64,000 nt of DNA, taken from positions 124,001 to 188,000 of the forward strand of contig JAAFIS010000001.1 in the NCBI GenBank assembly GCA_013298695.1, given 5' to 3'. Below, piece after piece: positions 1,901-18,480 of this stretch; the first letter of the stretch is position 1; each line of letters begins with the position of its first letter. Under the pieces are notes generated by a model. It was not told the origin of the DNA and made no database searches. It saw only the letters and a program-made list of their open reading frames with translations. This DNA comes from Betaproteobacteria bacterium (GTDB taxonomy: Bacteria > Pseudomonadota > Gammaproteobacteria > Burkholderiales > Casimicrobiaceae). Position numbers and translations under genes: made by a program.

Positions 1901-1954
1901 GCAGAGGCTGATCCCGCTTTACTCGCTTCTCGAGGCGTGCAACACTTCCGCTCA

Positions 1955-2428
1955 ATGGCAACTTACAAGAAAACACAGACCGGCATTACCGAACTCAACT
2001 CGCACCAACTCGGATTGCGAACCGAGCTGCGCCGCTTGTTGATTCTGATTGACGGGAAACGGTCAATCCAATCACTCGCCCCTTTTTTCCGGCCAGGTGA
2101 AGTGTCGGGGTTGGTCGATGAACTCGAACGGCTCGGCGCGATTGAAATGGCGACGCCGATTACCGGCATGCTTCCCTCGGCCACGGCATCGAGCGCGATC
2201 TCAAGTAAACAACTTCAGGCCGCAATTGGTATTGCAAAAACAGTAGCAAAAAGCCGTTTCAATAGGGCAGCAGACCGGTTTATCACTGAACTCGATCGCT
2301 GTAAAGATTCGCAGTCTCTTCGAGCAATCGTCTCGGATATTCAGCTAAAGCTGATGGCTGAATATGATGAGGAAATGGCGACCGCGTTTGTCGCGCAAGT
2401 ACGAGCTGAATTCAACCCGAAACAGTGA
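1955..2428 (+). CDS. Unknown protein with winged-helix-like N-terminal domain
   Basis: The product is a soluble protein of 157 residues; I do not recognise a named family. The first ~65 residues follow a pattern (KTQTGI..L......RRLLILIDGKRS....L......SGLVDELERLGAIE) that looks like a small winged-helix or adaptor domain. The rest is predicted helical, with a serine/alanine linker near residue 70-80. The same N-terminal pattern recurs in the 226-residue protein at 13986-14666 in the photosensory operon. I chose the ATG at 1955; a GTG at 1937 in the same frame is possible. It sits between lpxC and a convergent DUF721 gene. Confidence 0.7.
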   Translation: MATYKKTQTGITELNSHQLGLRTELRRLLILIDGKRSIQSLAPFFRPGEVSGLVDELERLGAIEMATPITGMLPSATASSAISSKQLQAAIGIAKTVAKSRFNRAADRFITELDRCKDSQSLRAIVSDIQLKLMAEYDEEMATAFVAQVRAEFNPKQ

Positions 2429-9038: not shown

Positions 9039-9485
9039 ATGACCGCCACATTCGATCCGAACGATCCGCGCCCGGTTACACGTGTTGCCGTGGTCATCAT
9101 CGAGCGCAACTTAGCTGGCGCGTACGAGGTGCTTTTCGCGCAGCGCCCAGAAGGCAAACCTTATGCGGGTCACTGGGAGTTTCCGGGCGGAAAAATCGAG
9201 CCAGGTGAATCGATCACCGATGCCGCGATTCGAGAAATTAAAGAAGAACTGGGACTGCAAATTTCAAGCGTCGAGCAGTTTGCGGTAGAGAGATTTAGCT
9301 ACCCACATGCGCATGTCGAACTCAATTTTGTAACTTCAGCGCAGTGGTCTGGCGAACCGCGCGGACTAGAAGGTCAAGCATTTGCGTGGCAGTCGCCGCG
9401 AAACATTAGTGTTGCACCGTTACTGCCCGCACTGCTGCACGAGCCAAAGACGATTCTGCGCAAACTTATGAATCGCACGAAGTAA
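9039..9485 (+). CDS. mutT: Nudix hydrolase, MutT type (8-oxo-dGTP diphosphatase)
   Basis: MutT-type enzymes remove oxidised dGTP from the nucleotide pool. The 148-residue product has a complete Nudix box, GKIEPGESITDAAIREIKEE, at about residues 50-70, preceded by the family's HWEFPGG. The ATG at 9039 starts MTATFDPNDP. An in-frame start at 8970 exists but would overlap the preceding gene by about 50 bases. It is the last gene of the argJ group; transcription then meets the convergent photosensory operon. Confidence 0.88.
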   Translation: MTATFDPNDPRPVTRVAVVIIERNLAGAYEVLFAQRPEGKPYAGHWEFPGGKIEPGESITDAAIREIKEELGLQISSVEQFAVERFSYPHAHVELNFVTSAQWSGEPRGLEGQAFAWQSPRNISVAPLLPALLHEPKTILRKLMNRTK

Positions 9486-9634: not shown

Positions 9635-10273
9635 TCATCTACGGAGATCGTCGAATCGAATGCAAATATCTGCGCCTTCGGTCTCGCTCGCCGGGCGTAC
9701 GGTTGCGGTTCGCGGCGTTGACGCTGCGAACGAGTGTGCGGGCGCAGCCTGAGCGCTCCGAGCGGCCTGCAGGATTGCAAGTGCAGCCACATCCATAGCG
9801 TTGGTGCTTTTTCCATTCAGCGTTGCGGCGCCGACGTCCGCGACGGGCGGTCTCTGTGATCTCGCTGCTTTTGTTACACGCTTGACCATCAGCCACACGA
9901 CCTTTTTTCCTGCGTCAAGACCGGACACCATGTGGATGCGTACCTTGATTGGTTCATGTACCGACGCGTAAAGCGCGTTCTGAAACTCGTAGTCGAAAAT
10001 GAGGTTGAGCACTTTGTTGGTGTCCATCGCGTCGCGGAAGCGCCCGTAAAACTCAGGGCGCTGCGTGCAGACCGCGACGTCTAAAAAGAAATTGCGGCCC
10101 ACAACATCGTCGGGGTGAATTCCCGAGATTTCAGCTTCCGCCATGTTGTACGCGAGGATGGTGCCTTTGGGATCAAGCTTCACAACGCCAAACGGCAATC
10201 GATTTCGCGCCTCGTCGGGAAGACGATCCAACACGCCACTAATGTCAGTGCCTAAAAAATCAACACGTTCCAT
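9635..10273 (-). CDS. pyp: Photoactive yellow protein homologue, long type (PYP-B1)
   Basis: This is a PAS-fold photoreceptor of the PYP family, cytosolic, 212 residues. The first ~125 residues align without gaps to Halorhodospira PYP through the chromophore pocket: Tyr42 (LAYN), Glu46 (MAEAE) and Cys69 (DVAVCTQRPEFYGRF) fall at identical positions. Thr50 is Ser and Arg52 is Ile. These residues bind p-coumaric acid in known PYPs, so light sensing is likely but not proven. The PAS domain ends at MVKRV; then comes an Ala/Ser/Thr-rich linker and the terminal peptide GADICIRFDD, shared with the second long PYP at 12168-12986. The ATG at 10273 has a GAGGTGA ribosome site; it is 23 bases after PYP-A1. 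Confidence 0.9.
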   Translation of the reverse strand: MERVDFLGTDISGVLDRLPDEARNRLPFGVVKLDPKGTILAYNMAEAEISGIHPDDVVGRNFFLDVAVCTQRPEFYGRFRDAMDTNKVLNLIFDYEFQNALYASVHEPIKVRIHMVSGLDAGKKVVWLMVKRVTKAARSQRPPVADVGAATLNGKSTNAMDVAALAILQAARSAQAAPAHSFAASTPRTATVRPASETEGADICIRFDDLRR

Positions 10274-10296
10274 TGCTTCACCTCGATTGAGTTTGT

Positions 10297-10716
10297 CTAC
10301 GCTGTGGGCATGATGCGTCGCACCATGATCCACATACTTTTTTCACCGAAAACGCGCGATAGCGTCATGCGCACGAGCATCGCCGTTTCGGGCATCTCGT
10401 GGTAGAAAACGTATGGGAAGACCTCGTCATACGTGGGCTTCATGATGCCCTGCTTAAAACGGCCCCAAAACAGCGGGCCGACGCCGCAGGCGGCAAGATC
10501 AAGGAAGAAGTTACGACCGATCACCGCGCTCGGCTGGCGGCCCGTGATCTCGCCTTCGACGCGGTTATAACGCAGAATTTTTGCGTCGCGATCAAGCTTG
10601 ATGACACCGAAAGGTACCTGATCTAGCTCGAAGTCCGACATCATGTCGAGGCTGAAAATCGCGTCTTTGCCTTGTAACGAAAAGAAGCGGTTGTGGGCTG
10701 TAGCGACGGTGGACAT
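10297..10716 (-). CDS. pyp: Photoactive yellow protein homologue, short type (PYP-A1)
   Basis: The product is a 139-residue single PAS domain of the PYP family. The pocket residues are kept with PYP spacing: Tyr50, Glu54, Thr58, Arg60 and Cys77 correspond to 42, 46, 50, 52 and 69 (LRYNRVEGEITGR, LDLAACGVGPLFWG). After the cysteine the sequence departs from classical PYP, and the loop YHEMPETAM is specific to this type. An in-frame ATG 51 bases upstream exists, but alignment with PYP-A2 (also 139 residues) supports 10716. A 247-base gap separates it from the ligase gene, so it may have its own promoter together with PYP-B1. Confidence 0.88.
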   Translation of the reverse strand: MSTVATAHNRFFSLQGKDAIFSLDMMSDFELDQVPFGVIKLDRDAKILRYNRVEGEITGRQPSAVIGRNFFLDLAACGVGPLFWGRFKQGIMKPTYDEVFPYVFYHEMPETAMLVRMTLSRVFGEKSMWIMVRRIMPTA

Positions 10717-10963
10717 AAACGAACTGCAGTGCGTGAAAAGACTCCACGTGCTATTCGCAGCAGCCATGCCAGAAACTCGCGTTCGCCTGCAAAACCCTAA
10801 AAAACGATAGGCTCGTTAACCATTAATTCCGCACTTTGCGCGGGCACAGCTTCTCGCGTCGAAGTCCACTATTTAAGCGGTCTGGCTGAATATGTCCCAC
10901 CCTTCGCTCGGCGCGCGCGTCGGGAGGTAACTGCCGACGTGAGTTCGGCAACGACCGATAAAT

Positions 10964-12178
10964 TCACCAATCTGTGAGCTTGCCCATGTCGTTTTTCGGC
11001 ACTTGCGTGCCGACATTCCACTGTGAAACATGGATCGCCTGCGACCACGTACCACGCAGCGCTTGTTTCAAGTGGTCGATGAACGCGGGTTCGTCAACGC
11101 TTAAATCCTTCGGCACCACGAACGCTTTGAGCGCAGTAAATTCGCCGTCTTGAAATGTCCTTATGTTTGCGTCGGCTACGCCCACGATCCCGCGCAGAAT
11201 CTCTCGTGCCGTGGTCAAGTCAATACGCTCGCCTGCGATTTTTACGATGTCATCGTTGCGCGGCCCAACAATAAATCGACCGTCGTCGGTGCGCTCGATG
11301 TGATCAGGCAGTGGCAGTGAAACGAACTTATCCTCGATGGCGCGCGTAAGGTGAACTTCATCACGATTCGCCCCATTCGATTGGGCGATGTACGGTAACC
11401 ACGCGTAGCTCGCCTCACCACTTTTTCTCACGCCAAGCCCTGCAGTTTCGCTGCTTCCGTAGATTTCCCAAACGGACGTGAATCCCAACTTCTGCTGCGC
11501 GGTGTTTGCGTCTGAGCTCACAAAACGTCCGGTTGAGGAAATCGCGATCACGTCGTTGGCACTCGCGCTAATGCCGCGCGCGATCCACGATTCGAGTAGG
11601 TGCGGCGTCGTGATGAGCACATCACCATTGTCGAAGCTCGGCGTGCGCAGCGATTGCGTCGCTTGACGCGTCCACGGTAGGCCACTCACCACCGACAGCA
11701 TCGCGACCCACAAATAGCCATAGATGTGATGCAGCGGCACGTGGGTCACGATTCGCGTTCGACCGCTCTCTCGCAGCGCATCCGCCCAGTGCGATGCCTC
11801 TTGCTCGAGCCAAGCGTGTGGATGACGGAAGTGTTTCGCCGCTGCTGTGGAACCTGAGCTGCGAAAAGTGATGTTGCGGGTCGCCTCCGCTTGCGAGAGC
11901 AAAACTACTTCGGTCCAACGTTCGCAGTTAGCAACGCCGAGCAACGTGTCTTCACGACCACTGTCGTACACGTTAAAAAACTCGGCCGCTGCGGCGCTGA
12001 CTGCCATGCGATCTAGCGAATCAAGCGCAAAATCATCTCGCCAATTGCTGCTCGCTTTTACGTCGAGAGCGGAGACCTCCGCGAATTTCGTCGGCTTCCT
12101 TGCGCGAAGTTCACTCGCAACAAAGTCGGCGATGACGTCGGGAAGAATTTGCTCATAGCGAGCGGCGTCAAACGTCAT
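10964..12178 (-). CDS. Carrier-domain-fused acyl-adenylate ligase, candidate PYP chromophore activator
   Basis: The product has 404 residues. Residues ~1-90 resemble an acyl/peptidyl carrier domain with an ALDSLDR motif, where Ser54 would be the phosphopantetheine site. Residues ~95-404 form a compact adenylate-forming domain: the ATP loop FRSSGSTAAAKHF (~105-117), IYGSSETAG (~239-247), NDDIVKIAGERI (~308-319) and the C-terminal catalytic lysine in PKNDMGK (Lys400). Known PYPs need p-coumarate activated by a CoA ligase (pCL); the position between two PYP pairs makes this enzyme the likely equivalent. The ATG at 12178 overlaps the stop of PYP-B2 by 11 bases; an in-frame start at 12202 is less likely. 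Carrier function and substrate are inferred. Confidence 0.8.
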   Translation of the reverse strand: MTFDAARYEQILPDVIADFVASELRARKPTKFAEVSALDVKASSNWRDDFALDSLDRMAVSAAAAEFFNVYDSGREDTLLGVANCERWTEVVLLSQAEATRNITFRSSGSTAAAKHFRHPHAWLEQEASHWADALRESGRTRIVTHVPLHHIYGYLWVAMLSVVSGLPWTRQATQSLRTPSFDNGDVLITTPHLLESWIARGISASANDVIAISSTGRFVSSDANTAQQKLGFTSVWEIYGSSETAGLGVRKSGEASYAWLPYIAQSNGANRDEVHLTRAIEDKFVSLPLPDHIERTDDGRFIVGPRNDDIVKIAGERIDLTTAREILRGIVGVADANIRTFQDGEFTALKAFVVPKDLSVDEPAFIDHLKQALRGTWSQAIHVSQWNVGTQVPKNDMGKLTDW

Positions 12179-12986
12179 CAAAGCGAATAACGATGTCCGC
12201 ACCCATAGTCTCGGGCTGTGGCGCGGGCGCCGTAGGTGTCATCGGTGGCGTCATGCCGTACATCGCGTTCTGCGGGTAGGGCGCAGGCTGCGGCGCGAAA
12301 GCCGTTTGTTGCGGGTATTGCATCGGCTGACCCGGCTGCATTTGCGGCATCGGCTGCATTTGCGGCATCGGTTGCATGCCCGGTAGCGGCTGCGAATACA
12401 TCGGGGGTTGAGCTGCATAGCTTGGCACTTGCGAGGCGGCCGGTGCTGCCGTTGCCCCAGGCCACGTGGAAGGCACAGGCGGCATCACAAGCGGGGCTCC
12501 CGCGCCCAGCGTTGGCACGCCAAGCTGTGCAGCCGCATTCGCCGCAACATCCTGCACTGGCGCGCGCTGAGGTCGATTGCCGCCGACGCGCTTCACCATC
12601 AGCCACACGATTTTCTTGCCACCAATTTCGTAGCTCGAAAACATTTGAACACGCACCTTAATCGGGTCGTGCACGGCTGAATACAGCGCGTTCTGAAATT
12701 GGTAATCAAAAATGATGTTCAACACTTTGTCGTTGTCCATCGCATCGCGGAAGCGACCGTAGAACTCTGGGCGCTGTGTGCACACAGCGACGTCGAGAAA
12801 AAAGTTTTTTCCAATGACGTCTTCAACGCGCACACCAGAGATTTCTGCCTCTGCCATGTTGTAGGCAAGGATGTTTCCTTGCGTATCGAGCTTGACTACG
12901 CCAAACGGAAGGCGATTGCGGTCTGCATCGGGGATGCGATCAAGCACGCCGCTAATGTCCGCGCCCTGAAAATCAACACGTTCCAT
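12168..12986 (-). CDS. pyp: Photoactive yellow protein homologue, long type (PYP-B2)
   Basis: The product has 272 residues. The PAS domain (1-~135) matches PYP without gaps through the pocket: Tyr42, Glu46 and Cys69 are present (LAYNMAEAEIS, DVAVCTQRPEFYGRF), with Ser at 50 and Val at 52. It is followed by a ~125-residue linker rich in Pro, Met, Gln and Ala with PMPQMQ repeats, then the same terminal peptide as PYP-B1 (GADIVIRFDD). The linker is much longer than that of PYP-B1, while the PAS domains are close. A strong AGGAG ribosome site precedes the ATG, 12 bases after PYP-A2. Translation is probably coupled to the ligase gene downstream. Confidence 0.9.
   Translation of the reverse strand: MERVDFQGADISGVLDRIPDADRNRLPFGVVKLDTQGNILAYNMAEAEISGVRVEDVIGKNFFLDVAVCTQRPEFYGRFRDAMDNDKVLNIIFDYQFQNALYSAVHDPIKVRVQMFSSYEIGGKKIVWLMVKRVGGNRPQRAPVQDVAANAAAQLGVPTLGAGAPLVMPPVPSTWPGATAAPAASQVPSYAAQPPMYSQPLPGMQPMPQMQPMPQMQPGQPMQYPQQTAFAPQPAPYPQNAMYGMTPPMTPTAPAPQPETMGADIVIRFDDV
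12334..12377. repeat. 18-base tandem repeat inside the PYP-B2 linker
   Basis: The unit GGCTGCATTTGCGGCATC occurs twice exactly, with a third partial diverged copy. On the coding strand it encodes Pro-Met-Pro-Gln-Met-Gln, so copy-number change would lengthen the linker in frame by six residues. Confidence 0.85.
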
Positions 12987-12998
12987 TAGTTACTGCTC

Positions 12999-13418
12999 CT
13001 ATTGCGCGCTAGGCATGATTCGGCGAACCATGATCCACATCGATTTCTCGCCGATGACGCGCGACAGCGTCATTCGAACGAGCATCGCGGTCTCGGGCAT
13101 CTCGTGATAGAAAATATACGGAAAAATTTCGTCGTAGGTCGGCTTCATGATGCCCTGCTTAAAGCGCCCCCAGAACAGCGGCCCGACGCCACATGCCGCG
13201 AGGTCTAGGAAGAAATTTCTTCCGATAACAGCACGCGGATCGCGCCCCGTAATTTCGCCTTCAACGCGGTTGTAGCGAAGAATTTTGGCGTCTTTATCGA
13301 GCTTGATTGCACCGAACGGTACTTGATCGAGTTGCTGTTCGTTCAGCATATCGAGCACCTGGGCGGCATCGTGTCCTTGAATCTGAAAAAAGCGTTGGTA
13401 TTGGGCGGTGGCTGACAT
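12999..13418 (-). CDS. pyp: Photoactive yellow protein homologue, short type (PYP-A2)
   Basis: The product is 139 residues, the same length as PYP-A1 and very similar to it. Pocket residues are Tyr49, Glu53, Thr57, Arg59 and Cys76 (LRYNRVEGEITGR, LDLAACGVGPLFWG), matching positions 42, 46, 50, 52 and 69 of Halorhodospira PYP. The N-terminal ~30 residues differ from PYP-A1. The ATG at 13418 is preferred over one 21 bases upstream because it has GGAT upstream and gives a product equal in length to its paralogue. It lies 37 bases after the BLUF gene and 12 before PYP-B2, so the genes are almost surely cotranscribed. Confidence 0.88.
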   Translation of the reverse strand: MSATAQYQRFFQIQGHDAAQVLDMLNEQQLDQVPFGAIKLDKDAKILRYNRVEGEITGRDPRAVIGRNFFLDLAACGVGPLFWGRFKQGIMKPTYDEIFPYIFYHEMPETAMLVRMTLSRVIGEKSMWIMVRRIMPSAQ

Positions 13419-13455
13419 AAATCCCGATCCGTTTCGCACGGAGTCCTGTAGTTAG

Positions 13456-13950
13456 TTATCGCAAGAAACGCGCGAAGATGCTCTTCTCTTGAGCAGGTTT
13501 TGTACCGGGTTGATTTTGCTCACCCGGTTTAGCGTCGAGCGACATCGCAGTCGCTGACAATTCGATCAGAAGTTTCTCAGCGTTGTCGCCGCTCATTCCG
13601 TACGGATTGAACATGCTTTGATTGGAGTACTTCAGAAACATTGCGCGGTTGTCAGCGTTGGGCGCAGCAAAGCCCATCGACCACGCGGACCAGTGACGCT
13701 CTTCAATGGGCGTGTATTTCAACAGCATCAAATTGAAGTGGCGAGGATCGCGAACCAGCTTCGCGTAGAGATCGTTGATCGCCTCGCGACTGCCTTCGAG
13801 GGCTTGCAAGAACACTTTGCTGTTGAAAGCGAGCATGCCGGTCAAGTCGCGGGCTCCGTTGTTGGTTTGTGCAGTGTTGAGGATTTTTTTGAATTCGTTC
13901 AAATCAACAGAATCGAGCGCTGTTGAGACATAAACAAGGCGATAGATCAT
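13456..13950 (-). CDS. BLUF-domain blue-light sensor
   Basis: The product is 164 residues: a BLUF flavin-binding domain (1-~95) plus a short C-terminal extension ending in a basic, hydrophobic peptide (KSIFARFLR). The photochemical residues sit at the spacing known from AppA: Tyr7 (RLVYVS), Asn31 (QTNNGA), Gln49 (FLQALEG), Trp90 and Met92 (WSMGF). BLUF proteins sense blue light through FAD. No output enzyme domain (EAL or cyclase) is attached, so it probably acts by binding a partner, perhaps one of its operon neighbours. Confidence 0.93.
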   Translation of the reverse strand: MIYRLVYVSTALDSVDLNEFKKILNTAQTNNGARDLTGMLAFNSKVFLQALEGSREAINDLYAKLVRDPRHFNLMLLKYTPIEERHWSAWSMGFAAPNADNRAMFLKYSNQSMFNPYGMSGDNAEKLLIELSATAMSLDAKPGEQNQPGTKPAQEKSIFARFLR

Positions 13951-13985
13951 GAGTGGCTCCGGTGTTGTGCGGCGTTTAGCCGGTG

Positions 13986-14666
13986 TTATCGTTGAGTTAA
14001 GAGACGTATTTCGCGCAAATGGTCAACGCTCACGCGCCCTAGCTTTGCGATCATTTGTGAGTAATCGGGCAGGCTGCGTTCGAGTTCGTCGAACGAATCG
14101 ATGCGATCAATCGAGAGCGAAACTTCCATCGCGACGTCGGGCAGATGACTCAACAAAAAATCAGTCATCAAACTCTTGGCGCGATTGAGCTTTGCCGTGT
14201 TCAGGTAAGACGGACCCGCACGACCTGAAAGTGTGGGCGGGCTTTTCGAGAAATGGCTTTGTGCCTCGTTGATCTTGGCCAGAATGTCGTAGTTCTTGAT
14301 CGACGATTCACCGGGCACGCTTGGCTGCTGCGTTGATTCAAACGGCATGGTGGCGGCGAGTGTGCGCAAATCGTTTTGAATCGAGCTGGGCGTTGAACGG
14401 GGAGGCACGCTTGCTACTGTGTTGGCGACGCGTGTATTTGCGGCCGTGACCCGTGCGATGTAGCCTGCGTTTTCAAGGCCCTCGAAGAGCATGCCAACGT
14501 CACCGAGATGACTGAGAATCATTCGATACGACGCCAAGCGCGTGCGGCCGTCAACTGCGAGAAGAAGCGTGCGCATCGCACGCGGCATTTCGCGCGCTAA
14601 ATCACGCGCCACTTGGGTTCCGTGTGGCGTGCGCATGAAAATAATGCTGTCGTCGATAGTGCTCAT
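13986..14666 (-). CDS. Unknown protein of the photosensory operon with winged-helix-like N-terminus
   Basis: The product has 226 residues and no recognised named domain. Residues ~10-75 follow the pattern RTPHGTQVA......RTLLLAVDGRTR....I...LGDVGMLFEGLENAGYI, the same as the N-terminus of the protein at 1955-2428, and look like a small helical or winged-helix unit. A Ser/Thr/Pro-rich linker (~80-120) follows, then a helical C-terminal domain. There is no signal peptide or membrane segment. Its ATG overlaps the stop of the preceding gene (ATGA), so the two are translationally coupled. The domain layout suggests an adaptor or transcription-linked partner of the photoreceptors; this is inference. 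Confidence 0.75.
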   Translation of the reverse strand: MSTIDDSIIFMRTPHGTQVARDLAREMPRAMRTLLLAVDGRTRLASYRMILSHLGDVGMLFEGLENAGYIARVTAANTRVANTVASVPPRSTPSSIQNDLRTLAATMPFESTQQPSVPGESSIKNYDILAKINEAQSHFSKSPPTLSGRAGPSYLNTAKLNRAKSLMTDFLLSHLPDVAMEVSLSIDRIDSFDELERSLPDYSQMIAKLGRVSVDHLREIRLLTQR

Positions 14667-15844
14667 GTGCGCTCCTGTGCACGCAATAGATCGAATGCCG
14701 ATTCGATAGAAGTAATGAGTGTGGAGATGCGTGAGGCGAGGTCGACGCTGTCAGACGCCCAAAGCGACGAGATCATCAAACCCGGAAAACGCTCAGACGC
14801 ATTGAGCGCGAACACGGCGTCGTCGAGCTTGAGAGTCAAAGTGCGCACCGATCCTTCGTCAAACGCCGCAAGCTGCAGTGAAATACGTTCGTCGAAGCTC
14901 TGCCAGTCGCGCGATGCGTCTACGACGTCGTCAGTGACTAGGAGCGGTTGTGATCCGTCATGCAGCGATACACGGCGTGCTCCGCAGCGAATCATCGCTT
15001 CGTACGTCGCGCGCTCGATTTCGACTTCGGTTGAGGGCTGCTGCGCTGGCGTTTCCGCGCGCGTGCTGTCATTTTGGCTTTGATTAGGCACGCCCATTTC
15101 AATTGGGCGATCCTGCACTAAATTTTGTGCATCAACAAAACTAAAAATATGCGATATCGCCCCATTCAGTTGGATTTCAAGCGTTGCTGCTGGAAGCGCA
15201 AACGTAATCTTGCCGCCGTGCGACAAGTTCATCGAGTCGATTTGATCGGCGACGACAGGTAGCGTAGGCTCGTTGCGTGGATTGACAATTAAAACTTGCT
15301 TTACGTGCGCGTCGGTGAGCGACAACAATTGGTCGGCAAACGCGAGATCCAAGAGATCTGATTCAAGTTGCTCGCCGGGAAGCGTTGAGGCGTTAGAGAG
15401 GCACAAGATGAGCACGTCGGCCGCTGCATAGACGGGCAGTGTTGCGAGCAACGCTTTGTCTTGTGCAGCACTCGGCGATGCGGCGAACGCGGCGGGTTGA
15501 GCCGTGTAGACACTTATTTCTGTGTCGCCGCCGGTATCGCGGAAGCAGTTAATTGAGAACGGCGACTGCGCAGCGTCGCCGCTCACGTTGACATGCGCGG
15601 TTTGCCGATCAAATCCCAACGCCACCAATTCATTTTCTAGCGTTAGACAGAACGAACCGCTGCGATCAATGATCGCAAACACCATTTCGTTGGAGGATGC
15701 GTTGTGCCTACGGCGCGCAAACCAGAGGCGCGCTGCCTTGATTAGTTTTGATGTTCGCGCGTTCCGGTCTGTACTAGACAAACGTCGATCTGTTTGCGCG
15801 ACGTTTGCGTGTTTTGGTATCTGTTCATCTACAGAAATACCCAT
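14663..15844 (-). CDS. Unknown protein, first gene of the photosensory operon, roadblock-like C-terminus
   Basis: The product has 393 residues and I cannot name it. After a polar N-terminus (~1-50), residues ~53-240 form an alpha/beta region with strands such as VFAIID, VLILCLS and KQVLIVNP that resembles a GTPase-like fold but lacks a P-loop. A linker (~245-270) leads to a C-terminal ~110-residue part (GARRVSLHDGSQPLLV ... FDERISLQLAAF ... RTLTLKLDDAVFALN) with the pattern of roadblock/LC7 domains. Such domains partner small GTPases in bacterial polarity and motility switches. The ribosome site GAGGGTGAC precedes the ATG. Both domain calls are by pattern only. Confidence 0.7.
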   Translation of the reverse strand: MGISVDEQIPKHANVAQTDRRLSSTDRNARTSKLIKAARLWFARRRHNASSNEMVFAIIDRSGSFCLTLENELVALGFDRQTAHVNVSGDAAQSPFSINCFRDTGGDTEISVYTAQPAAFAASPSAAQDKALLATLPVYAAADVLILCLSNASTLPGEQLESDLLDLAFADQLLSLTDAHVKQVLIVNPRNEPTLPVVADQIDSMNLSHGGKITFALPAATLEIQLNGAISHIFSFVDAQNLVQDRPIEMGVPNQSQNDSTRAETPAQQPSTEVEIERATYEAMIRCGARRVSLHDGSQPLLVTDDVVDASRDWQSFDERISLQLAAFDEGSVRTLTLKLDDAVFALNASERFPGLMISSLWASDSVDLASRISTLITSIESAFDLLRAQERT

Positions 15845-16172
15845 GTCACCCTCGATTCTTTATCTTCGCTGAACGTTCGTCAGTGACGACGTTTTCTTGT
15901 GTTTTTTGTTCTGAGCAAGAATCGTACTACCAAAAGTAGTAGGTTTAAGGAATCAAACGGAGAAATCGGAAACAACTGGATGCAATCGCTGATTAATCCA
16001 GGCACGAGCTGAGTTTAGGAGAAGCTAATCGGGGCGCGAATCGCAGCAAAGTGTCAATGTGCGGCACGTCTTAGACAAATGCGACGAATTGCGGCAGGTG
16101 ACAAGACGAACTTGTGGCCGACAAAATGAGAAGAGGTGCGCTTACGCGTTTGTCGCTGCGGTGCGAATCGAT
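15845..16172 (-). promoter_or_regulatory. Upstream region of the photosensory operon with an inverted repeat
   Basis: This is the 328-base gap between egtD and the first gene of the operon, and it must hold the operon promoter unless transcription reads through from egtBD. It contains a perfect inverted repeat TACTAC-CAAAA-GTAGTA at 15925-15941, about 85 bases before the start codon, and a GAACGTTC palindrome near 15870. I could not settle on a -35/-10 pair. The rest shows nothing recognisable. Confidence 0.4.
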
Positions 16173-17186
16173 TCAATATGCGTAATAAACACAAAAATCA
16201 CACGCATCATCATGCCACGCCTGAACGTGATCGAAGCCTGCAGTGCGCAGAAGCGCCTCGAACTCGATGGGTGAGTACTTATATGAGTTCTCGGTGTGAA
16301 TTCGTTCGCCACTTTTGAAACGACGCGTTTCACCGCGAATCTGCAGGCTGAGGTCGCAGGTAGCCTCCACGTGCATTTCAATGCGACCAAGCGCGGCGTT
16401 GTAGAAGCCTCGATGTCGCCATTGGCTGACGTTGAAATTCGTTTTCAGCAACTCGTTGACATGGCGTAGCGTATTCAGATTGAACGCTGCAGTGACACCG
16501 AGCGCGTCGTCGTAGGCGGCGTCCAACCGTGCGTGATCTTTTTTAGTGTCGACGCCGATCAACAAGCCGCAGCCATCGGTTCTTCGGTGCGCGTGAATCT
16601 GTTTAAGAAACCATGCTGCCTCGTCCGGCATGAAATTGCCGATTGAGGAACCAGGATAGAAAAAAACGGTCGGCTCATCGCGAATGACGTGCTTCACGTT
16701 GAGCACACGTGAAAAATCAGTGATCAATCCGCACAATTCTGGCTTACCGTTCGTCGATATCGAGCCCGCTAGCCGCGCAAGCGCCTGCTCGACGGCCGAT
16801 TCCGAAATGTCGACCGCCACATAGCGCGAGGGCGCGAGTGAAGGAAACCATTTCTCAGCCTTTACAGAGTCGCCGCTGCCTAGATCAACAAATTGTTTGC
16901 CGCTGCCAATTGTGTCGGCAATCTCGGCGCGAAATTTATCGAAGATGGCAGCTTCGGTGCGCGTTGGGTAATACTCGTCGGTGAGCACGATAGCGTTGTA
17001 GAGCGTCGAGCCAAGCGCATCATAAAAATACTTCGGAGGAATCGACGCCGCAGGCGCGAGCAAGCTGCGCGCAAGCTGATCGAGCTCCGCCTTGGAATCG
17101 AGCTTGAGCTCGTTCACGATAAACGGCCGCGCAGTGGTGACGGCTGAACTTGCGCCGCCGACAGTGGTGATCGAACGAAGAGACAT
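16173..17186 (-). CDS. egtD: L-histidine N-alpha-methyltransferase EgtD
   Basis: EgtD trimethylates histidine with S-adenosylmethionine to give hercynine, the first step of ergothioneine synthesis. The 337-residue product shows PPKYFYDALGSTLYNAI and EYYPTRTEAAIF near the N-terminus, the SAM loop FVDLGSGDSVKAEKW, YVAVDISESAVEQAL and FFYPGSSIGNF. The EgtD substrate-site region is intact by eye. The gene lies 64 bases downstream of egtB on the same strand, so the two are an operon, with the photosensory operon next in line. Confidence 0.95.
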   Translation of the reverse strand: MSLRSITTVGGASSAVTTARPFIVNELKLDSKAELDQLARSLLAPAASIPPKYFYDALGSTLYNAIVLTDEYYPTRTEAAIFDKFRAEIADTIGSGKQFVDLGSGDSVKAEKWFPSLAPSRYVAVDISESAVEQALARLAGSISTNGKPELCGLITDFSRVLNVKHVIRDEPTVFFYPGSSIGNFMPDEAAWFLKQIHAHRRTDGCGLLIGVDTKKDHARLDAAYDDALGVTAAFNLNTLRHVNELLKTNFNVSQWRHRGFYNAALGRIEMHVEATCDLSLQIRGETRRFKSGERIHTENSYKYSPIEFEALLRTAGFDHVQAWHDDACDFCVYYAY

Positions 17187-17250
17187 AAGCGGTTTACTCG
17201 TTTACAAATAATTCACGAAGCGCGCTTCGTGTCAGTTTTTCTGGGTTGAG

Positions 17251-18480
17251 CTACCGCGCAAGGCGAAGCCCCGTAAATTGCCAGCGCTTGTCAGGCTGGA
17301 AGAAATTGCGATAGGACAGTCGAGTGTGTTCGACTGGAGTTGCGCACGAGCCGCCGCGCAACACGTACTGTTGATTCATGAATTTTCCGTTGTATTCGCC
17401 CACGGCCCCGCGCGCTGGCGCAAACCCCGGGTACGGCAAATACGCCGAAGCCGTCCATTGCCAAGCGGTGTCGTTGAGCTGTTTAAGCCCGCGACGAGCG
17501 TTCGCAGCGTGTTCCCATTCAAACTCGGTGGGTAGGCGAACGCCGGCCCAGCGCGCAAACGCATCCGCTTCAAAGTAACTCACGTGACAAACGGGCGCCT
17601 CGAGATCTATTGGTTTCAGCCCGGAAAGGGTAAACGTCTGCCACCCTTGATGGGCCTCATCCTGACGCCAGTACATCGGTGAATCAATACTAGATTGTTG
17701 CACCCAATCCCAGCCGTCGGAAAGCCAGAGCGAATGGTCACTATACGCACCGTCTTGCATGAACGAGAGATAGTCGCCGTTGGTCACTAGGCGGTCCGCG
17801 ATTTGATACGGTTGCAACAATACGCGATGCCGTGGTGATTCATTGTCAAATGCAAAATCGGTTGACGGCTGATGACCGACTTCCACGATGCCTCCCTCGA
17901 ACGCTTCCCATTGAATCGCAGAGGCGCTGATCGCTCGTGGTTGCGGCGCATTTGCCGCGTAAACTGGAGCGAGCGGATTGATTGAAAGCAGGTGCTTCAA
18001 ATCAGTGAACATGAGCTCTTGATGTTGTTGCTCATGATTGAAACCGAGCACCATTAGTGCAGCGATCTGTTCACGATCTTTTGGATCAGCGTTCAGCAGA
18101 AACGATTCAATCGCCGCATCCACATGGGAGCAATATGCGAGTACGTCGCTGAGCGAAGGCCGTGAAATCATGCCGCGCTCAGAACGCGGGTGTTTATTGC
18201 CGACGCCGTTGTAGTAGCTGTTGAAAAGCACTTTATAAGACGTATTGAGCGCCCTGTAGCCAGCATCAAACGCGTCGAGCAGGAAGGTTTCGAAGAACCA
18301 AGTCGTATGTGCAAGATGCCATTTAATCGGGCTGGCGTCAGCCATAGATTGCACTTGACAGTCTTCTGCAGAAAGCGGAGAGGCGATAGCCAGCGTGGCC
18401 GATCGAACACGACGGTATTGTGCGTTGAGTGTTTCAAAGTCGAGCGCGGAGCGTGCAACTGACGGATGAGACGGGCTCAC
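17251..18480 (-). CDS. egtB: Ergothioneine biosynthesis sulfoxide synthase EgtB
   Basis: EgtB is the non-haem iron enzyme that joins hercynine to a thiol with oxygen, giving the sulfoxide intermediate. The product has 409 residues. The N-terminal DinB-like half carries WHLAHTTWFFE and the HEQQHQE iron-ligand motif (HxxxHxE). The C-terminal half is an FGE-sulfatase-type domain, with GVRLPTEFEWEHAA, NGKFMNQQYVLRGGSCATP and RLSYRNFF. I see no egtA or egtC, consistent with versions that use cysteine; the lyase step would be encoded elsewhere. Confidence 0.94.
   Translation of the reverse strand: MSPSHPSVARSALDFETLNAQYRRVRSATLAIASPLSAEDCQVQSMADASPIKWHLAHTTWFFETFLLDAFDAGYRALNTSYKVLFNSYYNGVGNKHPRSERGMISRPSLSDVLAYCSHVDAAIESFLLNADPKDREQIAALMVLGFNHEQQHQELMFTDLKHLLSINPLAPVYAANAPQPRAISASAIQWEAFEGGIVEVGHQPSTDFAFDNESPRHRVLLQPYQIADRLVTNGDYLSFMQDGAYSDHSLWLSDGWDWVQQSSIDSPMYWRQDEAHQGWQTFTLSGLKPIDLEAPVCHVSYFEADAFARWAGVRLPTEFEWEHAANARRGLKQLNDTAWQWTASAYLPYPGFAPARGAVGEYNGKFMNQQYVLRGGSCATPVEHTRLSYRNFFQPDKRWQFTGLRLAR

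Follow-up and report, generated by a model that had tools for sequence, protein, structure and literature searches.

Cyanobacterial PixD, a protein with a BLUF domain, acts via a partner, PixE. Photoactive yellow proteins (PYPs) are sensors of another kind, and in the H. halophila-type pyp-pcl-TAL operon, seen in Indioceanicola profundi, the PYP is encoded with a ligase of the TIGR02372 kind. How single-domain PYPs transmit their signal is treated as an open question in the available part of PMC12826048. The same part describes two pyp operons with a BLUF gene, both from Caballeronia sp. SBC2, a genome with five PYPs. Here we analyse an eight-gene photosensory block from a Betaproteobacteria bacterium of the family Casimicrobiaceae. 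It lies in a stretch of 64,000 nucleotides, called the window (positions 124,001 to 188,000 of contig JAAFIS010000001.1, assembly GCA_013298695.1). The block is a real one, combining two photochemistries, PYP and BLUF flavin, with a PYP-type ligase (LIG). The kinds of component are known; the combination is new. The original prediction, made from the sequence alone, suggested a multi-input light complex not known to be described. That stood for a four-PYP operon, no description of which was recognised in the literature searched, supplements not covered. It did not stand for BLUF-containing pyp operons or for genomes with up to five PYPs, which the available part of PMC12826048 reports. The interpretation put forward here, with an even chance of being right, is of a probably acquired, lineage-specific blue-light operon in which LIG would load p-coumarate on two-colour PYPs, and the products of the two leading genes, H1 and H2, would receive the PYP and BLUF signals.

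The gene block and its BLUF protein

The block consists of eight open reading frames (ORFs), all on the minus strand at 9635-15844 as had been predicted, consecutive with overlaps or short gaps and transcribed in the order H1, H2, BLUF, PYP_B2, PYP_A2, LIG, PYP_B1 and PYP_A1 (Table 1). Computed from the ORF coordinates, H1 and H2 overlap by 4 bases, H2 and BLUF are 35 apart, BLUF and PYP_B2 16, and PYP_B2 and PYP_A2 12; PYP_A2 overlaps LIG by 35, LIG and PYP_B1 are 196 apart, and PYP_B1 overlaps PYP_A1 by 37. The predicted spacing of 0-40 bases with one gap of 247 agrees with the other borders, which measure 4-37 bases, and with the large gap only if PYP_B1 begins at its inner ATG. From its own inner ATG, PYP_A1 follows PYP_B1 after a gap of 23 bases. 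Codon usage favours the assigned frame in all eight genes, and their GC content (0.507-0.581) is similar to that of the surrounding DNA. The host genome, 4.08 Mb in 22 contigs, is 99.5% complete. Judging from the sequence, the eight genes may well be co-transcribed.

Table 1. Features of the photosensory block and its upstream flank, with positions in the window
Feature	Position	Strand	Basis or remark
H1, 393 aa, first gene	14663..15844	-	orphan; codon usage of a gene
H2, 226 aa	13986..14666	-	unnamed widespread family; N-terminal 'VDG' domain and helical C-terminal half
BLUF protein, 164 aa, PixD-like	13456..13950	-	PF04940 E 2.7e-28
PYP_B2, 146 aa, short PYP, Thr50/Arg52/Gly70	12999..13439	-	TIGR02373 110.4 bits
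PYP_A2, 272 aa, Ser50/Val52, Pro/Gln-rich tail ending GADIVIRFDD	12168..12986	-	TIGR02373 106.5 bits
LIG, 412 aa, PYP-type 4-coumarate ligase: carrier-like N-terminal stretch and short adenylation domain	10964..12202	-	TIGR02372 E 3.2e-52
Carrier-protein-like stretch of LIG, Asp-Ser-Leu motif (Ser62)	11969..12079	-	PF00550 12.8 bits, whole-genome search
PYP_B1, 156 aa, PYP_B2 paralogue; inner ATG at 10716 a possible start	10297..10767	-	TIGR02373 107 bits
PYP_A1, 232 aa, PYP_A2 paralogue, Ala-rich tail ending GADICIRFDDLRR; inner ATG at 10273 a possible start	9635..10333	-	TIGR02373 108.4 bits
PYP_A1 terminal tail motif ICIRFDD	9647..9667	-	relaxed motif scan, six frames of window
PYP_A2 terminal tail motif IVIRFDD	12174..12194	-	relaxed motif scan, six frames of window
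Palindrome TACTAC-N5-GTAGTA upstream of H1, possible operator	15925..15941	.	exact copy unique in genome

The BLUF domain scores 98.3 bits in Pfam against a cut-off of 25. Tyr7, Asn31, Gln49, Trp90 and Met92, the five residues named in the original prediction, were all confirmed by counting on the sequence. The nearest relatives in the Protein Data Bank (PDB) are Tll0078 and Slr1694, and the alignment reaches residue 131-132, past the BLUF domain. By these sequence features the protein is PixD-like, with a C-terminal extension of the PixD kind. The search for PixE was confined to H1 and H2, and Pfam recognised no PixE-like domain in either.

Four PYP homologues of two types

The best NCBIfam match of all four PAS proteins is TIGR02373 (photo_yellow), at E 9.2e-31 to 5.8e-32 and 106.5-110.4 bits, under the curated cut-off of 143.05 bits. 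The miss says little because this is a strict equivalog model, its cut-off being passed in just one of the 399 genomes of the order. On sequence, the four are kept as PYP homologues and not as TIGR02373 equivalogs. A profile built from them retrieves the PYPs of the PDB at E 1.7e-36. Tyr42, Glu46 and Cys69 are present at PYP spacing in 4/4, as predicted; a conserved Cys69 is what the available part of PMC9664959 uses to define the family. A TIGR02373 search of the 4.08-Mb genome gave four PYPs in total, all inside the block. The accompanying statement that PYPs are usually single genes had to be dropped: more than one PYP occurs in 16% of the genomes analysed by PMC12826048, going by the available part of that paper, so multiple PYPs are not rare.

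Type B (PYP_B1 and PYP_B2) has Thr50, Arg52, Ala68 and Gly70. Type A (PYP_A1 and PYP_A2) has Ser50, Ile or Val52, Val68 and Thr70, and in addition a variable tail. The two B proteins are 88% identical over 118 core codons, with a dN/dS of 0.046 at a dS of 2.07, and the two A proteins 78% identical over 133 core codons, with a dN/dS of 0.040 at a dS of 3.4 (Nei-Gojobori counts); with dS saturated or almost so (2.1 and 3.4), the ratios are rough and the copies old. Two paralogue pairs are thus kept by purifying selection. Between the types the identity is only about 35-37%, and positions 47, 50, 52, 66, 68, 70 and 97-100 distinguish the types in both copies alike, the alignment of the last four being uncertain because of a type A insertion near residue 100. 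The gene order, B-A and again B-A, suggests one joint duplication of neighbouring B and A genes.

A tree of 28 PYPs joins PYP_A1 to PYP_A2 (support 99/96) and PYP_B1 to PYP_B2 (100/100). All four lie on the H. halophila side of a branch supported at 100/99, outside a 15-row group that contains most same-order PYPs. As a single group they appear in 0 of 200 bootstrap trees, and the tree gives no support for types A and B as nearest kin. Four PYPs could also be redundant dosage copies, A and B doing the same job. The two paralogue pairs, their repeated order and the near identity of the B cores would fit this, but the low A/B identity, the parallel differences in both copies and the presence of the tail in type A only argue otherwise, and redundancy is considered rather improbable.

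A difference in colour is predicted instead. Section 5 of PMC12826048, within the available part, gives 445 +/- 2.7 nm for six Thr50 PYPs and 434 +/- 1.4 nm for two Ser50 PYPs. By this position-50 trend type B, with Thr50, should lie near 445 nm and type A, with Ser50, near 434 nm. A natural Ser50/Thr50 pair within one cell would be a clean test of spectral tuning.

The type A tails are of unequal length and 41% identical over 76 aligned codons, and both end in ET[EM]GADI[CV]IRFDD. A relaxed form of this motif, scanned in six frames of the window and not in the rest of the genome, gave only two sites, both of them A tails. A conserved end on a freely changing linker suggests a docking peptide, and the tail would most likely dock on a partner, H1 or H2.

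Ligase, carrier-like stretch and chromophore source

The dedicated ligase of the original prediction was borne out: LIG is a PYP-type 4-coumarate ligase, encoded beside the pyp genes and matching TIGR02372 near full length (177.5 bits, model positions 26-385 of 386). The score is under the cut-off of 334.7 bits, as are those of six other PYP-linked ligases (291-322 bits). The P-loop and the final Lys align with those of PYP-linked ligases. LIG was aligned with 12 other PYP-linked ligases, making 13, of which 12 are distinct (window 11858-12145 (-), L009, L010, L103-L107, L018, L020, L021, L025 and L026). Only Glu31, Leu32, Asp61, Ser62 and Trp96 are invariant in the N-terminal region, the Asp-Ser pair being present in 13/13.

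This Asp-Ser pair lies in a stretch that resembles an acyl carrier protein. PP-binding is the sole Pfam match of the N-terminal 96 residues of LIG (E 0.11, under cut-off). Nine of the 13 N-terminal fragments match PF00550 (PP-binding) at E 0.0011-0.17, all under the cut-off of 20.8 bits; the other four lack one, and three fragments match unrelated families at similar E (0.08-0.17). Searched at E <= 10, the host genome has three PF00550 matches: acpP, one other and LIG. A profile of the ligases aligned with E. coli AcpP over 31 columns (score 34.6, E 9e-6, probability 83%) and with two AcpPs over 34 columns (E 5.5e-6, 86%). The controls, 200 shuffles and 189 unrelated fragments, scored at most 17.4. 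The match spans the Asp-Ser-Leu helix, not a complete carrier fold. The carrier-like stretch with its invariant Asp-Ser points to a carrier built into PYP-linked ligases as a possible source for chromophore loading. The word "carrier" has 0 occurrences in the main text of PMC12826048 and of PMC9664959, and no description of such a ligase region was recognised in the literature searched, judged by titles and abstracts. If the region is real, the accepted CoA route of chromophore loading needs re-examination.

A genome search found a single aromatic lyase, which on inspection of its motif and gene neighbours by eye looks like a histidine lyase (HutH) in a hut cluster; no tyrosine ammonia-lyase (TAL) was seen in the genome. 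The p-coumarate is therefore probably imported. Most pyp operons in the available part of PMC12826048 likewise have no TAL. It might be argued that some of the sensors are no longer photoactive, keeping the PAS fold without binding p-coumarate. Pro68, a conserved residue of the PYP pocket, is replaced by Val or Ala in 4/4, the TIGR02373 cut-off is missed and a TAL is lacking. Against this stand the retained Tyr42, Glu46 and Cys69, the purifying selection and the PYP-type ligase in the block, and the missed cut-off weighs little at one pass in the order. Loss of photoactivity is held to be very improbable.

Origin, candidate receivers and relation to known systems

The original prediction looked to conserved gene order in other genomes as the mark of a system. 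The block was found in no other sampled genome, and the idea of a conserved system fails on that count. TIGR02373 matches 5 of 60 relatives, the host included; one match is convincing (G004) and three are weak, in long proteins. It matches 11 of the 399 order genomes at E <= 1e-12, and a profile of the four PYPs matches 5 of 398 phylum genomes at 1e-10, the host included both times; no other match keeps the block. H2 occurs in two of the 17 genomes of the genus, the host and G009. Two narrow patterns run against 84,980 species gave 3 loci, none with another block gene. Given a narrow species scan and partial samples of order and phylum, a second carrier of the block may exist. The PYP of the congener G004 (L014 6264-6638) is a different, single homologue at the end of a short contig, and in the tree it falls in the group with most same-order PYPs.

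Another congener, G002, has secA, argJ, an ATPase gene (8138), a nudix gene (8970), egtD, egtB, tetR and an RND gene in the same order as the window, and about 230 bases at the place of the block. Nucleotide similarity to G002 ends at 9392 and restarts at 16232. EgtD is present in 13 of the 17 genomes of the genus, the host included, which places egtD outside the insert. Ten of the 12 other egtD-bearing genomes were fetched, and 0/10 have block genes at the egtD stretch. Gain of the block in this lineage is the simplest account, with loss in the other genomes as the alternative; the block is probably lineage-specific and acquired. The borders are not linked by a close direct repeat, 9 bases being their longest shared word. 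A mobile element was considered and rejected, as there is no such repeat and no integrase or transposase was noticed by eye in the ORF list.

The egtD- and egtB-like genes (ergothioneine synthesis; 16173-18480, minus strand) share the strand of H1 and immediately precede it at a distance of 328 bases; transcription could run on from them into the light block. The palindrome upstream of H1 was rejected as the operator of a regulon: it occurs once in the genome, and a reversed control pattern is equally frequent or more so. Its chance figure is biased because the pattern was derived from that same site.

H1 has no Pfam or NCBIfam match at E <= 0.1 and nothing convincing among PDB sequences (best E 0.58). 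A Roadblock domain for its C-terminal half, prompted by the strand pattern, is no more than an idea, there being no such Pfam match. Among 64 genomes of the family H1 is found in the host only; the 398 further order genomes give two weak matches, each with an internal stop, which look like chance. H2 belongs to a family whose profile matches 134 of the 399 order genomes, the host included. With a profile of 22 family members that excludes it, H2 scores 73.5 bits, a figure that is partly circular because the family was gathered by an H2-derived profile. The N-terminal half of the family carries a conserved "DG" motif and is probably a winged-helix-like domain; the C-terminal half, at 14.8 bits alone, shows little conservation. 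Pfam has no match for H2, nor a model for the scanned family members (loci L072-L100). One member (L091) is fused to a receiver domain. The family also appears at the start of long proteins, for example L098, with a weak YhdP match. Neighbours of H2-like genes elsewhere have no common theme (aspartate decarboxylase, GreA/GreB, AMP-binding, EamA and others). A second protein like the H2 family, recognised by eye, is encoded at window 1937-2428 (plus strand) after an lpxC-like gene, and the start of its gene is conserved in G002 (67% over 215 bases). Neither H1 nor H2 has a match in 72,556 plasmid records.

The block encodes no kinase, cyclase, phosphodiesterase or chemoreceptor, which makes H1 and H2 likely receivers of the light signals. 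In the proposed mechanism LIG would activate p-coumarate, probably taken up from outside, and its product would be loaded on Cys69 of the four PYPs. The two PYP types would report two blue bands, light altering their shape; in type A the change would alter the availability of the tail for docking on H1 or H2. The PixD-like BLUF protein would report blue light by flavin, also through protein-protein contact, as a third signal, and H1 and H2 would take up the PYP and BLUF signals. Chromophore binding, colours, docking, the role of H1 and H2 and the output are all predicted from sequence, as is a physical multi-input complex, which may form.

Alternatively, the PYPs could signal to targets encoded elsewhere, for example diguanylate cyclases or chemoreceptors, the route commonly assumed for most PYPs; H1, H2 and BLUF then need not share a pathway with them. 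Sections 8-9 of PMC12826048, in its available part, describe pyp loci that adjoin GGDEF/EAL or chemoreceptor genes, and such neighbours occur in Caballeronia SBC2, SBC1 and M1242, in Indioceanicola and on Rhizobium and Methylobacterium plasmids. H2-like genes lie in many unrelated contexts, and H1 or H2 accompanies a PYP in no other sampled genome. The tight same-strand packing with overlaps and the absence of the whole block from G002 speak against such distant targets, which we consider possible though on the unlikely side.

Several further points weigh against a blue-light operon with H1 and H2 as receivers. No second sampled genome has H1, H2, BLUF and PYPs together in support of co-inheritance. 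Promoter-like and terminator-like sites in the block are at chance level. AlphaFold models of the single proteins are too poor to use (pLDDT 36.4 for H1 and 40.6 for H2). The position-50 trend has exceptions, according to the available part of PMC12826048. The replacement of Pro68, the roughness of the dN/dS ratios and the uncertain alignment of residues 97-100 count on the same side.

A more specific form of the blue-light operon is a two-colour comparator, in which the duplicated Thr50 B and Ser50 A PYPs would act as a heteropair with the A tail docked on H1 or H2, and the ~434/445-nm ratio and the BLUF flavin signal would be joined into one output. The chromophore would come from the ligase-borne carrier and not from free p-coumaroyl-CoA, a route then general for PYPs. 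This elaboration is speculative and unlikely to hold in full. With the sensors, the ligase, two candidate partners and a conserved type A terminal peptide in one block, the question of PYP signalling becomes directly testable.

Compared with cyanobacterial PixD (Slr1694/Tll0078), the BLUF protein shares the domain with its key residues and stays similar outside it, but the window block has no PixE-like response regulator, neither a receiver nor any other Pfam domain being recognised in H1 or H2. Clade C PYPs with GGDEF/EAL genes, as described in the available part of PMC9664959, are of the same family and from related bacteria, whereas the window PYPs fall outside the 15-row same-order group and the block has no c-di-GMP gene. 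Caballeronia SBC2 likewise has PYP and BLUF genes in a predicted operon and several PYPs per genome. Unlike the window block, the two SBC2 pyp regions inspected have pyp and ligase beside EAL/GGDEF genes; each also has another PYP-like gene, under the annotation "phosphonate transporter". Their entries in the plasmid gene table, which is incomplete, include no BLUF. The H. halophila-type operon shares with the block a PYP, a TIGR02372-kind ligase and the same side of the 100/99 branch. That operon has one PYP and a TAL, whereas the window block, with no TAL gene, has four PYPs of two types together with BLUF, H1 and H2.

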